From: Microlunatus parietis
Lineage (GTDB): Bacteria > Actinomycetota > Actinomycetes > Propionibacteriales > Propionibacteriaceae
Direction of reading: 5' to 3'
Length of the DNA: 64,000 nt
Assembly: GCF_013407955.1 (NCBI RefSeq)
Contig: NZ_JACCBU010000001.1
Span: 3,224,001 to 3,288,000, forward strand
The notes under the pieces were generated by a model, which had not been told where the DNA came from, searched no databases, and saw only the letters and a list, made by a program, of their open reading frames with translations. The position numbers were made by a program, and so were the translations under genes. This document shows positions 3,731 through 12,229 of this stretch, in pieces (position 1 is the first letter of the stretch; the number at the start of each line of letters is the position of its first letter).

Positions 3731-5265
3731 CAGTTGATCTCCTCCAGCCGCCGGGTCTGCCGGAAGCTGATCAAGGAGATCGCCCCGACGATCAGGAAGA
3801 TGATGATCGACAGCGAGCTGGCCAGGCCGTACTGACGGGTGCCGCCCTGCCCGGCCAGGCCGGAGATCTGGTACACCATCGAGATCAGGATGTCGGTCTG
3901 GCCGACCGCGACCGGAGCACCGGGGAACGGCGGCCCACCCCGGGTCAGCAGATAGATGATGTTGAAGTTGTTGAAGTTGAACGCGAACGAGGCGATCAAC
4001 AGCGGGGCCACCGAGACCAGCAGCAGCGGCAGCGTGATCAGCCGCCAGATCTGCAGTGCGGAGGCGCCGTCGATCCGGGCCGATTCGATCAACTCCGCCG
4101 GGATCGACTGCAGGGCGCCGGTACAGATCAGGAACATGTACGGGAAGCCGAGCCACAGGTTGACCAGCACAACGGACAGCTTGGCCAGCCAGGGGTCGGT
4201 CAGCCAGGGAATCGACGCGCCGCCGAAGAACGTCTGGTTGATGAACCCGAAGTCGGTATTGAGCATGCCGGACCAGAGCAGCGCCGACATGAACGGCGGG
4301 AACGCGTACGGGACGATGAAGAAGGACCGGTAGAGGCGCTGGCCCCGGACCCGGCGGTCGTTCATGGTGATCGCCAGGCCGAGTCCGACCAGGAACGTGG
4401 TCGCCACGGTCACGATCGAGAAGACCACGGTCCAGAGCAGGACCTGGCCCATGATCGTCGAGTAGCGGGTGTCGGTGAACGGCCGGGTGAAGTTCTCCGT
4501 ACCGACCGGGACGGCCCAGCCGGTGCCGAGCTCCTGGCCGTCGGCGGCGGCGAAGCTGCCCCGCTCGTTCGGCCGGTAGACGGTGCCCGACTCGGTGTCG
4601 GTGAGCGTGTCGGCGGCCGGATCGTAGATCAGGAAGGACTTGTAGAGGTAGGCGTGCGACCCGTCGGTGGTCCGGTACGCACCGTCCTCCGCGTCGGCCG
4701 AGGCCGGCACCCGCAGCGCGTTGATCTGGTCCTGGATCGGCAGCAGGTCGGTCAGGGTCAGCACCTGCCAGCCGGGCACGGCGGTGATCTTGGTCCCGGT
4801 GATCGTCGCGGCCGGCTCGGGGCGCGGCGGCTGGCCGGCGGTGCCGAGCTGCACCTGCCCGTCGATGATCACCGCGAGCCCGTACTCGCTGGGATTCTGC
4901 AGGTTGCGGATCACCGAGGCCGGCAGTTGCGCCGAGCCTTCCACCCGCTTCTCGTTCTGGGCCAACAGCGAGTCGATCGCCTCGGCCTTGGTGACCAGAT
5001 GACCGTCGCCGTAGTTGGTGAACGCGACGTAGCCGGTGTAGCCCATGCTGAACACCTGGAACACCAGCAGGAAGATCAACCCGGGCAGCAGGTAGCGCAG
5101 CGGCAGCGCCCGGCGGGCGAAGTAGACGATGTCGGCGATGATCACCAGCACGACGCAGACACCGGCGATCACCGGGTGATCGGTGGCGATCGCCCGAGCC
5201 ACCAGATAGACGCCGAACGCGTTGACCAGCGCGATCAGCAGCAGCTTGATCAGGAACCCGGGCAT
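3730..5265 (-). CDS. malF: Maltose-type ABC transporter permease MalF
   Basis: A 511-aa permease, close to the length of enterobacterial MalF. Two N-terminal hydrophobic spans are followed by a third (YLLPGLIFLLVFQVFSMGYT). Then comes a large periplasmic loop of about 150 residues that corresponds to the MalF P2 loop which docks the binding protein. The remaining spans carry the EAA motif ELIESARIDGASALQIW. It overlaps the binding-protein stop by one base at 5265 and malG by one base at 3730. The P2 loop supports maltose/maltodextrin-type transport rather than a short MalF of other CUT1 systems. Confidence 0.9.
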   Translation of the reverse strand: MPGFLIKLLLIALVNAFGVYLVARAIATDHPVIAGVCVVLVIIADIVYFARRALPLRYLLPGLIFLLVFQVFSMGYTGYVAFTNYGDGHLVTKAEAIDSLLAQNEKRVEGSAQLPASVIRNLQNPSEYGLAVIIDGQVQLGTAGQPPRPEPAATITGTKITAVPGWQVLTLTDLLPIQDQINALRVPASADAEDGAYRTTDGSHAYLYKSFLIYDPAADTLTDTESGTVYRPNERGSFAAADGQELGTGWAVPVGTENFTRPFTDTRYSTIMGQVLLWTVVFSIVTVATTFLVGLGLAITMNDRRVRGQRLYRSFFIVPYAFPPFMSALLWSGMLNTDFGFINQTFFGGASIPWLTDPWLAKLSVVLVNLWLGFPYMFLICTGALQSIPAELIESARIDGASALQIWRLITLPLLLVSVAPLLIASFAFNFNNFNIIYLLTRGGPPFPGAPVAVGQTDILISMVYQISGLAGQGGTRQYGLASSLSIIIFLIVGAISLISFRQTRRLEEIN

Positions 5266-6524
5266 CAGCCGGCCTTCTTGATCGCCGCCTCGATGTTCTT
5301 GGCCATCGTGGTCCAGGTCTGTTCCGGCTCGGCGCCACCGACGATCGCGGCCTCGGCACCGCCCCAGAACGTCCAGACCTGGGCCATCGGCGGGATCGAC
5401 GGCATCGGGAGGCCGTCCTGGCCGGCCTCCGCGTACCCCTGCACCAGCGGGTTGCCGGTGACGGTCGCGTCCTCGGCGGCCTCGGTGAGGGCGGGCACCC
5501 GGTCGCCCTGCTCGAACAGCTTGAGCTGGACCTCCTTGGTGCCCAGGTAGTTGACCAGGAACTCGGTGGCCAGCAACGCGTTCTTGCTCCGTGCCGACAG
5601 GATGAAGCCCTGCACGCCGACGAACGGCCGGGCCGGCTGGCCGCCGGCCGACGGGATCGGCATCACGGTGACGTCCAGCTTCTTCTTCTCGAAGTCGGGT
5701 GTGTTCCAGGGACCGGTGATGAAGAACGGCGAGTTCTGGTTGAGGAACTGTTCCTTCGCGATGTCGCCGGTCAGCGACGTGTCCAGGACCTTGTTTCCCT
5801 TCTTTCCTTGGCTTCCCAGCCAGGTGGCGAACTTCAGCCCGGTCTCGTCGCCGATGGTCAGCGTGTCGGAGAAGGTGCCGTCGTCGTTCATCCGGAACAC
5901 CGTGTTGCCGAACGAGGACTGCAACGGGAACGTGTGGTACGGATCGCCGCCCTCGCCGACGCCGAGCAGCAGCGGGTACTTCTTCCCGGCCTCCTTGCCG
6001 GCCGTGATCAAGTCCTCCCAGGTCTGCGGGACGTCCTTGCTCAGGGCGTTGTTGCGGACCAGCCCGATGTTCTCGATCGAGTACGGCAGCCCGTAGCACT
6101 GGCCGTCCTGGCTGAACGCCGACACCGCCAGCGGGGTCAGCCGGTTGGCAAGATCACCGAGCTCGATCGGCGCGACGACGCCCGACTTGATGAAGTTGCC
6201 GATCCCGTCGTGCGGCGTGACCGCGATGTCGGGGCCCTTCCCGGACGGCACCTGGGTGGAGAACTGTGGCCCGATGTCGGCGAAGTTCTTGGTCACCACC
6301 TCGATCGTGACGCCGGGGTTGTCGGTGGAGAACTGCTTGCCGATCTCCTTCACCGCTGGCGCCCGCGATCCGTCCACCCAGACCACCAGCTTCGCGCTCT
6401 GGGCGGCCGGCGTCGACGGCGCGCTGCTCGGCGCCGGGCTGCTGACCGTACCGGTGGGCGTGCCGGTGCTGCAGGCCGCCAGGGGCGCGGCGAGTGCGAG
6501 GCCGACGAAGCTGCGTCGCTTCAT
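5265..6524 (-). CDS. malE: Extracellular sugar-binding lipoprotein (MalE-like)
   Basis: A 419-aa solute-binding lipoprotein, first gene of the transporter operon. The signal peptide MKRRSFVGLALAAPLAAC has a lipobox with lipidated Cys18, followed by a Ser/Pro/Thr-rich linker to about residue 42. The body is a family-1 binding protein (KLVVWVDGSRAPAVKEI, GKGPDIAVTPHDGIGNFI, GLPYSIENIGLVRN). The ATG at 6524 is supported by AGGAG eight bases upstream. It captures the ligand outside the membrane and delivers it to MalFG. The clear MalE resemblance plus the long MalF loop make maltose or maltodextrin the most likely ligand. Confidence 0.88.
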   Translation of the reverse strand: MKRRSFVGLALAAPLAACSTGTPTGTVSSPAPSSAPSTPAAQSAKLVVWVDGSRAPAVKEIGKQFSTDNPGVTIEVVTKNFADIGPQFSTQVPSGKGPDIAVTPHDGIGNFIKSGVVAPIELGDLANRLTPLAVSAFSQDGQCYGLPYSIENIGLVRNNALSKDVPQTWEDLITAGKEAGKKYPLLLGVGEGGDPYHTFPLQSSFGNTVFRMNDDGTFSDTLTIGDETGLKFATWLGSQGKKGNKVLDTSLTGDIAKEQFLNQNSPFFITGPWNTPDFEKKKLDVTVMPIPSAGGQPARPFVGVQGFILSARSKNALLATEFLVNYLGTKEVQLKLFEQGDRVPALTEAAEDATVTGNPLVQGYAEAGQDGLPMPSIPPMAQVWTFWGGAEAAIVGGAEPEQTWTTMAKNIEAAIKKAG

Positions 6525-10652: not shown

Positions 10653-10718
10653 GCGCCGAGTGTGAGGTTGCGACCCCGTTCGGGCAGATTTCGGGTACGC
10701 AACCTCACACTCGACGCC
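10653..10718. repeat. Palindromic repeat, left copy
   Basis: Perfect 16-bp arms, CGAGTGTGAGGTTGCG at 10657-10672 and its complement at 10698-10713, separated by 25 bases. The unit lies 15 bp after the phosphotransferase stop. Its reverse complement aligns with the copy at 11680-11744 along the full length, loop included, which shows common descent rather than independent terminators. Confidence 0.85.
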
Positions 10719-10790
10719 CTCGGCGCGCCATCCTGTGGATAACGCGGCTTCGGGATGGCGGAGTTGGGGCGGCGCGTGTTGGGTGGCTGG

Positions 10791-11691
10791 ATGGAACTTC
10801 CGCGTTTGATGACCGTGCGCCACGCCGCGCGGCACGGATTGAGGGCGCGACAGCTCCAGCGGCGATCCCGGTTTCGCCGGCTGGCGCGGGGCGTCTACAC
10901 AACGGGACCGGACGATCCGAACCTGACCGAGCTGGCCGCCGCCGCGCTCCTCGTCCTGCCCAATGGACACCGTGATCACCGGGGTGACGGCTCTGTGGCT
11001 GCACGGGGTCGAGGTCGGCTCGCCAATGCCGATCCGGGCTGCGACCGCCACCAAGACTCAGTCCGTCCGGCCGGAGATCCGGCTGAGCCGCGTCGGGCGG
11101 CTTCCCGAGTGCCGGCGACGCGTCGCGACGCCGTCGGCTGCCTGGCTGGCCGCCTGCACGGAGTTCGATCTGGTGGAGGCCGTGGCCGCTGCGGACTGGC
11201 TGACGCGGCTGGGCCGGACGACACCCGATGGGCTTCAGGCCCTGGCGGCGCAGGCGGCGGGGCGCGGCTGCCGACTGGCCCGCCGCGCCGCTGGCCTGTG
11301 TCGGGCCGGGGCCGAGTCGCCGAAGGAGACCGAGCTGCGGCTCCTGCTGGTCCTGGCGGGCCTGCCGGAGCCCCGCTGCAATCCCCGGATCGGCACCGCC
11401 GCTGCCCCGATCGGACGCATGGACCTGGTCCTCGAGGACTACAAGACGATCATCGAGTACGACGGCGATCAACACCGGACTGACCCATGGCAGTGGAGCC
11501 GCGACATCGCCCGCCACGAGGCGGCCGTCGCCGCCGGCTACCGGATCATCCGCGTCACCAACGGCCGGCTGACCAACCCCCGCGAGATCGCCGAGACCAC
11601 CTACACCGTCCTCACCGAACGCGGCTACTCCGGCCGCCGTCCCACCTACACCCCGCTTTGGCGCTCCCTCTTCGAAGGGCGTCGAGTGTGA
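10791..11691 (+). pseudogene. AbiEi-like wHTH plus DUF559 PD-(D/E)XK nuclease, frameshifted
   Basis: The N-terminal part (from ATG 10791, MELPRLMTVRHAARHG) is an AbiEi-like winged-helix domain with the hallmark LARGVYTTG. The C-terminal part (about 11300-11691) is a Vsr/DUF559 nuclease domain: ESPKETELRLLLVLAGLPEP, then GRMDLVLEDYKTIIEYDGDQH with the metal-binding D and E-x-D, then RDIARHEAAVAAGYRIIRVT. The two parts are in different frames, joined near 10957-10962. Removing one C from the CCC there restores LLVLPMDTVITGVTALWLHG, the expected family sequence. The family is often multicopy in actinobacteria. It is either a true frameshift or a consensus error. The last codons and stop lie in the right palindrome. 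Confidence 0.75.
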
Positions 11692-11744
11692 GGTTGCGTA
11701 CCCGTAATCCGCCGGAACGGGGGTCGCAACCTCACGCTCGGCGC
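11680..11744. repeat. Palindromic repeat, right copy
   Basis: Arms at 11683-11698 (CGAGTGTGAGGTTGCG) and 11725-11740 (complement with one change), 26-base centre. It lies between convergent genes and supplies the stop codons of both: TGA 11689-11691 for the DUF559 gene and TGA 11734-11732 for the kinase gene on the minus strand. It is the inverted counterpart of the repeat at 10653-10718. Confidence 0.85.
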
Positions 11745-12229
11745 CGGACCCGGGCCAGGATCTCGGTGGCCACGTCCGCGATCGGGCGGGTCGCATCGAT
11801 CACGGCGGTTCCCTGACGTTCCGCGTCGACGAGCGCCTGCTCGTTCAGCCGAAGCTGCTCGGCGAGTTCGGCCGGGGCCTTGCCGTTGTCGTTGTTGGTT
11901 CGGGTCCGGAGCCGGTGGCGCAGGGTGTCGTTGTCGATGTGAAGCACGAAGCGGCGGGCGAAGAGGTCCAGTACCTGCTCCTGGTTCAGGGCGCCGCCGC
12001 AGAGGAACACGTGACCATCCGCGACCTCGGCGGCAAACGTACGCAGCCGGTCGAGATCCCAGATCCAGTGGTCACGGATCATGATCTTGGACGGCCGTCC
12101 GGTCGCCGGGTCGCCGTAGTAGCCGAACTCCGCGTCGGCGTCCACAGCGCGGTGTCCGCGCCGGCGCAGTTCGCTGGCCAGGGTCGACTTGCCGGTCCCG
12201 GACAGCCCGTCGATCTGGTACAGCGTCAT
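11732..12229 (-). CDS. P-loop nucleotide kinase-like protein
   Basis: A 165-aa AAA_33/shikimate-kinase-like P-loop protein. The Walker A motif is DGLSGTGKST at residues 8-17, followed by LASELRRRGHRAVDADAEFGY with an acidic substrate-site pair. HVFLCGGALNQEQVLDLF resembles the family's lid region. It is likely an ATP-dependent kinase of a small molecule; similar stand-alone proteins in actinobacteria are unassigned. It starts at ATG 12229, 11 bp after the Cache-domain gene on the same strand, and its stop lies in the shared palindrome. Confidence 0.78.
   Translation of the reverse strand: MTLYQIDGLSGTGKSTLASELRRRGHRAVDADAEFGYYGDPATGRPSKIMIRDHWIWDLDRLRTFAAEVADGHVFLCGGALNQEQVLDLFARRFVLHIDNDTLRHRLRTRTNNDNGKAPAELAEQLRLNEQALVDAERQGTAVIDATRPIADVATEILARVRRRA

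Follow-up and report, generated by a model that had tools for sequence, protein, structure and literature searches.

A nuclease gene with a palindrome on each side makes up a unit of about 1.1 kb within the window, the whole 64-kb stretch of Microlunatus DNA that was analysed. The left palindrome lies at positions 10653-10717 (arm score 17, loop of 25) and the right one at 11678-11745 (arm score 15, loop of 26), with no strand assigned to either. Their arms have the form GAGTGTGAGGTTGCG-N25/26-CGCAACCTCACACTC, and they rank as the top two among the four palindromes with a score of at least 14 in the 64 kb. A covariance model of this palindrome (R1, described below) matched them at 10656-10714 and 11682-11741. 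We observed that the two are inverted copies of each other, with 94% identity over 47 bp that include much of the loops, 96% over the outer 25 bp in the inverted alignment and 93% over about 69 bp in a longer alignment. An earlier sequence-only reading had described a nuclease gene flanked by two inverted, near-identical palindromes, and both were located as claimed. The strict pattern GTGAGGTTGCG-N10-40-CGCAACCTCAC was present in the 7.24-Mb genome only at the two places in the window, and at none in 95 relatives.

The gene between the palindromes had a match to the Pfam domain DUF559 (E 4.3e-6), as that reading had proposed, with the correction that the window copy is frame-broken. One frame gave a profile match at 10767-10964 and another at 10957-11688; the copy is therefore a pseudogene or the product of an assembly error. 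The first part of the gene (10791-10964, plus strand), with its start codon at 10791 picked via alignment with relatives, is AbiEi-like by comparison with these relatives and differs in frame from the rest. The second part (10963-11691, plus strand, 242 aa) contains the DUF559 match (PF04480; 11419-11613, plus strand), an EDxHD-like nuclease domain, and its TGA stop codon falls within the arm of the right palindrome. This part retains E122, D154, E165, H171 and D181 (own numbering), which correspond to E178, D210 (90% or more), E221, H227 and D237, residues that vary little or not at all among 55 relatives. The window copy itself is probably inactive, and its palindromes may be served by a paralogue at genome position 2390729, which is 74% identical to the window piece and is adjoined by the same palindrome family.

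A DnaA-box-like motif, TTATCCACA, was found on the minus strand between the left palindrome and the gene start (10734-10742). Among relatives (L092-L171), such a motif (TTRTNCACA) near the start codon was present upstream of the gene in 13 of 75 and in none of 525 control intervals. The looser motif TYCACA was seen in 36 of the 75 relatives compared to 52 of 1073 controls.

The predicted fold of the enzyme appears to join an AbiEi-like part to a nuclease of the I-Bth0305I/Vsr (EDxHD) kind. The AlphaFold2 model was made for a relative from Microlunatus speluncae that shares 69% identity with the second part of the window gene, with an alignment of proteins from 55 of the 80 loci described below, and had a mean pLDDT of 94.9. 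The top Foldseek match, covering the N-terminal and middle fold, was the AbiEi antitoxin 6y8q (E 1.7e-3, probability 1.0). The catalytic domain of the homing endonuclease I-Bth0305I (3r3p; E 0.11-0.14, probability 1.0, TM by target 0.75-0.76) and Vsr (1vsr; E 0.54, probability 0.92) were also matched, in a list where mitoribosomal proteins rank between these entries and every E value is above 0.001. Among the 55 relatives, 46 matched DUF559 and 50 matched MTES_1575 (Pfam families, E 0.01), while 22 matched one PADLOC AbiEi profile. The AbiEi-like domain named in the earlier reading is backed by the fold and by the PADLOC matches of relatives, whereas the window copy itself had no Pfam hit for this domain. 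The match to an EDxHD profile was weak (E 0.087); we read the conserved E, D, E, H and D residues as an EDxHD-like motif.

According to PMC3943268, the target on which I-Bth0305I forms a dimer is nearly 60 bp long, and PMC3985639 describes the binding of AbiEi to TGTTGCTTTTA-N27-TAAAAGCAACA. By analogy with these two precedents, the palindrome would be the dimer site of the protein.

Palindromes beside nuclease genes in relatives

The scan for relatives returned at least 546 of them, and the best 80 named loci were kept. Palindromes with an arm score of at least 13 were counted at these loci, with gene starts taken mechanically and with 976 intervals from the same loci as controls. Palindromes were present on both sides of the nuclease gene at 20 of the 80 loci, compared to 1 of the 976 control intervals. 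The counts were 40 of 80 versus 33 of 976 for the upstream side and 36 of 80 versus 39 of 976 for the downstream side. The upstream flank aligned with the reverse-complemented downstream flank at a score of at least 20 at 37 of 79 loci and in one of the 976 controls. At 60 of the 80 loci, palindromes were not seen on both sides, and 24 had one on neither side.

The loci fell into 38 orthology groups, of which 29 included at least one palindrome-bearing locus, 15 included a locus with palindromes on both sides and 9 had no palindrome. When one random locus was drawn per group, the means were 25.9 (palindrome) and 9.7 (both sides) of 38. The association of palindrome and nuclease holds across relatives of several actinobacterial families, and the palindrome sequence varies from nuclease gene to nuclease gene. 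A palindrome pair arising by chance is ruled out by the inverted match in the window, the rarity of the strict pattern and the excess of 20/80 over 1/976.

In a set of 119 loci (39 from the window's genus and the 80 named ones), scored at a slightly lower threshold, 31 loci had a palindrome on each side. The two palindromes matched each other (score of at least 23) in 24 cases and did not in 7. The outer span of the bracketed units was 1.06-1.17 kb in 23 of the 31, with a range of 0.99-1.55 kb. Of the 24 matched pairs, 15 aligned better in inverted and 9 in direct orientation, many by a difference of 1-3 points; for all 31 pairs, the numbers were 17 inverted, 12 direct and 2 tied. This mixture rules out a fixed inverted orientation as a defining feature. 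The picture of a transposon defined by terminal inverted repeats is not supported, as inverted ends are not a general rule across the 119 loci.

DUF559 matches were detected in 20 of the 20 genomes of the window's genus that were searched, with 11 such matches (Pfam) in the window's own genome. Other DUF559 genes of this genome are bracketed by different palindromes: L003 has TGTCACAAATCTGCAAYGCAACG on both sides and L006 has TGTCGCGATT-type arms on both sides. Among the six strongest window-type nuclease genes of the genome, two are directly adjoined by the window palindrome family. As a separate observation, L004 carries two long copies of a GAGTGGCACAGAATTGCAG palindrome (1883-1967 and 2184-2268), 300 bp apart and both downstream of a DUF559 gene.

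In Mycobacterium species, the nuclease gene was found inverted in place with respect to conserved neighbours (L137 compared to L144 and L127; L124 compared to L155). Palindrome-sized indels were sought in eight comparisons between named orthologous loci. Four showed no palindrome insertion. In the remaining four, each with L144 as one partner, the differences agree with the lack of a downstream palindrome, as judged by program in one case and by eye in three. Carriage by phages was considered and set aside; the viral contigs scanned held at least four weak relatives.

One site with many units in Herbiconiux

The clearest comparison of orthologous sites came from Herbiconiux, where the sequences of L110 and L161 are 95% identical on either side of the unit. 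Homology of the two ends at position 4322 of L110 and restarts at 5443, while the L110 palindromes occupy 4326-4385 and 5377-5440. On the L161 side, homology ends 28 bp before the palindromes and restarts 11 bp after them. The flanking genes, as judged from their translations, look like gltA and dapD.

We searched for this site in 16 Herbiconiux genomes, 12 of which spanned it fully. In 11 of the 12, the site holds an insert of 1136-1280 bp that includes a nuclease gene of the window-gene family. Ten of these inserts had a palindrome on each side, while G106 had only the upstream one at the threshold used; the palindromes were at most about 80 bp from the flanks. The twelfth genome, G103, has an empty site of 40 bp with no unit, so that the search for empty sites in close strains, proposed with the sequence-only reading, yielded one. 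Outside the 12, the intervals were 1712, 1661 and 1463 bp in G101, G112 and G114, respectively, and the left flank was not found in G108.

All that Cryobacterium lactosi has at the equivalent site is a solo palindrome of 61 bp. The gltA site of C. arcticum is 599 bp long, with no recognised unit, and the interval in C. cryoconiti is about 2.8 kb. At this one site, then, alignments place different units in sister species, no unit in one of them and only a solo palindrome in a species of another genus. The palindromes of L110 also had matches elsewhere, at least 46 in G096 and at least 43 in G097 (40 candidates scored, with flanks and both strands included in the counts). No such match was among those listed for three Cryobacterium genomes.

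For the 11 Herbiconiux units, nuclease identity correlated with palindrome similarity (Pearson 0.70, reached in 0 of 5000 permutations; Spearman 0.52, p 0.0004), and the nearest nuclease was also the nearest palindrome in 9 of the 11. No correlation was seen between the similarity of palindromes and that of host flanks (r -0.07, p 0.68). Such co-variation shows, at the level of sequence, that nuclease and palindrome travel or evolve together; it speaks to no binding of one by the other. Along with the association in relatives, the empty site and the differing units at orthologous sites, it lends good support to the earlier suggestion that the nuclease gene, together with the palindromes beside it, constitutes one unit.

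Identity at fourfold silent sites averaged 0.40 for the nuclease (0.34 expected at saturation) compared to 0.67 for gltA (saturation 0.45), and the value for gltA was the higher one in 54 of 55 pairs. For example, in the pair L286/L287 it was 0.85 for gltA and 0.30 for the nuclease (saturation 0.34). In the pair L292/L299, which has a common palindrome type, the values were 0.71 and 0.73. Since the nuclease approaches saturation at its silent sites and the neighbouring gltA does not, an effect that selection on the protein would not produce, the likeliest reading is that the units were replaced, with local hypermutation as a less likely alternative. One tree of 63 sequences (support values left aside) grouped the 11 nucleases of the site in a clade of their own, and therefore none of the other sampled sites was the source of these units. 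The pool of units seems to be tied to the Herbiconiux site, with exchange limited to it, and this exchange could proceed by ordinary homologous recombination through the flanks.

The turnover of specificity at one site would also be expected of a defence or conflict system, in which the nuclease would cut invading DNA, the chromosomal palindromes would act as self-markers or decoys and the fast exchange would reflect an arms race. The PADLOC matches of 22 of the 55 relatives point the same way. Still, the AbiEi match is to a DNA-binding antitoxin and not to a toxin, the palindromes bracket the nuclease gene itself, and a unit of about 1.1 kb leaves little room beyond that gene. We regard a defence role as very improbable.

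Solo palindromes in Microlunatus and Cryobacterium

For a looser search, the covariance model R1 was built from 16 copies, and 150 candidates were scored per genome. Strand matches numbered at least 62 in the window's genome, at least 99 in M. speluncae (G004), at least 20 in G058, 4 in G003 and 1 each in G001 and G011, with none among the 150 candidates scored in each of 15 other genomes. At least four matches were found in 4 of the 6 genomes whose best window-type nuclease had an E value of 1e-60 or below, compared to 0 of the 15 others (the threshold was picked post hoc); in 2 of the 6 the palindrome was absent or nearly so.

The matches listed for the window's genome (the best 150 of 1661 candidates scored) made up at least 31 palindrome sites. 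Two of the 31 are in the window, one is beside the gene at 2390729, and for the other 28 the nearest listed DUF559-type gene is 16 kb or more away. On the condition that the sequence-only reading had named as refuting it, a genome-wide palindrome unlinked to DUF559 genes, the outcome is mixed: the palindrome is found throughout the genome, yet palindromes are strongly tied to nuclease genes. Of the four strongest nuclease paralogues in M. speluncae, three have neighbouring palindromes similar, by eye, to three subfamilies of the solo copies in that genome.

The C. lactosi palindrome was present in 22 exact-arm copies of 61 bp across the genome. There were no copies in the sister species C. arcticum and C. 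cryoconiti, and no copies of a reversed control pattern. In C. arcticum (400 kb and two loci), both flanks were recoverable for 3 of the 22 sites, and the palindrome was in none of these. No nuclease of the window-gene family was recognised within the approximately 1.5 kb examined beside the 22 copies. A blastx hit beside one copy (L321) was rejected; it matches a neighbour gene in a run-on reading frame of L089 and not the nuclease. Two of the copies are 1.4 kb apart, and the gene between them is not the nuclease; to our eye it is presumably an acyltransferase gene. Likewise, no nuclease was recognisable between a further pair of copies about 1 kb apart (2623914/2624950).

All 22 C. lactosi copies were located from -60 to 100 bp of an ORF 3' end, compared to 104 of 368 random places, and visual inspection of the one at the gltA site suggests a terminator for both directions. 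Such positions would suit a purely regulatory role, with the upstream palindrome as an AbiEi-type operator, the downstream one as a terminator, solo copies as terminators or binding sites, and the Herbiconiux variation as ordinary allelic exchange. The inverted repeat bound by AbiEi in PMC3985639 has a similar geometry. Regulation alone would leave unexplained the matched specific ends, the unit boundaries at the palindromes and the species-specific amplification, and we find it distinctly unlikely. In its narrowest form, that of a generic terminator and nothing else, it is ruled out by the species-specific families and the matched ends.

The 16 copies from the window's genome (the 60-bp solo ones of the 31) have arms conserved as sequence. 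Pairing of arms within a copy showed no excess over pairing between copies in any of the four ranges (p of at least 0.86), and within-copy arm pairing was rejected for this genome. In 17 copies from M. speluncae, pairing at positions 10-22 was 0.84 within and 0.64 between copies, as expected because subfamilies were mixed; one subfamily of 10 copies gave p values of 0.049 and 0.995 for two ranges.

These data bear on RAYT-like transposition, by which a hairpin or cruciform formed by the palindrome would be the substrate of the protein, which would move solo palindromes, and sometimes the whole unit, without homing repair. The architecture of dispersed palindromes and a bracketed enzyme gene resembles REP/RAYT, the solo copies are uniform in length (61 bp in 22 of 22 in C. 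lactosi), and amplification is lineage-specific. Nevertheless, the enzyme has a Vsr/EDxHD fold rather than that of an HUH tyrosine transposase, the within-copy pairing signal is absent from the window's genome (the one in M. speluncae coming with mixed subfamilies), and by eye we noticed no target-site duplication in the flanks of solo copies or of the Herbiconiux site. Altogether, we take such transposition to be unlikely.

A clean empty site for the window unit was sought in M. speluncae and rejected: the APH gene next to it has a counterpart of 83% identity without the unit, but the downstream side is non-syntenic. Two solo palindromes of this species (L284 and L285) are identical in sequence and in their 12-bp flanks, perhaps as a result of a larger duplication.

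Other repeats came to light in the same searches. A dispersed palindrome of the CCTGAGCCTGTCGAAGG type had four copies in the 200 kb sampled of the window's genome (L024:8223-8279, L027:1506-1563, L029:2135-2192 and L029:14582-14637), with matches near sites of M. speluncae, too. The palindromes at L027:10578-10638 and L023:5723-5787 have a common loop, gcgacacgccg...aacgcctgctt, which suggests a further dispersed family. Long palindromes at L029:3922-3993 and L263:1851-1918, with related arms of 29-31 nt and a gcaaca-type loop, represent another repeat family.

Proposed homing-like cycle and known systems

Across the genomes compared, nuclease genes are bracketed by palindromes beyond chance, the two ends mostly match, the palindromes are specific to the gene, and solo copies are dispersed in several genomes. 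Palindrome-bracketed nuclease genes look like an undescribed kind of mobile DNA. We lean, by a little, towards reading the unit in the window as the decayed form of a small selfish cassette, one of a homing-like class whose nuclease, we infer, binds and cuts its own palindrome. The AbiEi-like part would bind both palindrome arms as a dimer, as AbiEi does on its inverted repeat with 27 bp between the arms, and the EDxHD nuclease would cut within or beside the palindrome. Repair from cassette-bearing DNA would then copy the cassette in, with the palindromes or the outer flanks as homology. The palindrome would be operator, target and boundary together, and solo palindromes would be targets or remnants.

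A broader proposal, to which we give rather less than even weight, is that of a new class of mobile elements. Here, an AbiEi-EDxHD nuclease would use a palindrome of about 60 bp as operator, target and boundary, solo palindromes would be the target population, and specificity would change by a joint swap of nuclease and palindrome. The function of DUF559 is given as unknown in Pfam. Linking DUF559 nucleases to cognate dispersed palindromes would provide a second, unrelated answer to the spread of REP-like palindromes in bacteria. The cassettes would also offer a natural set of nuclease-target pairs open to direct testing, since each gene carries its predicted site on either side. The parts of the open-access literature covered contained no account of cognate palindromes for DUF559 or Vsr-like nucleases.

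As for known systems, the DUF559/MTES_1575 nucleases of Pfam are the families to which most of the relatives belong, as counted above. Insertion sequences and transposons with terminal inverted repeats differ in orientation, since the matched ends here include 9 direct pairs beside the 15 inverted. The AbiEi antitoxin of type IV toxin-antitoxin systems has the same N-terminal and middle fold and the same inverted-repeat geometry of the operator. Here, however, the AbiEi-like part is fused to a nuclease, the palindromes are dispersed, and there is no room for an AbiEii toxin gene between the window palindromes.

Similarity to the EDxHD homing endonuclease I-Bth0305I extends to the catalytic fold, the conserved E, D, H and D residues, and an allelic site at which the gene is either present or absent (of the 12 spanned Herbiconiux genomes, 11 have a unit and one is empty). 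In contrast to I-Bth0305I, the gene is intergenic and not in an intron or intein, its DNA-binding part is AbiEi-like, and each end of the gene carries a copy of the presumed target.

The REP/RAYT-like geometry pointed out by the sequence-only reading holds for the arrangement but not for the enzyme. As in REPtrons, short palindromes are dispersed between genes (at least 31 in the window's own genome and 22 in C. lactosi, each of the latter near an ORF end), and an enzyme gene is bracketed by the same family. REPtrons, as described in PMC3733652, have tyrosine transposases, while CGTC-tagged REPs seem, according to the same source, to be without a dedicated transposase. Here, an AbiEi-EDxHD nuclease takes the place of the HUH tyrosine transposase, and the palindromes are about 57-65 bp long with no terminal GTAG (copy ends were read by eye). 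In its working, the element somewhat resembles both REP/RAYT and a homing endonuclease gene, but it lacks a defining feature of the former and differs from the latter in context.
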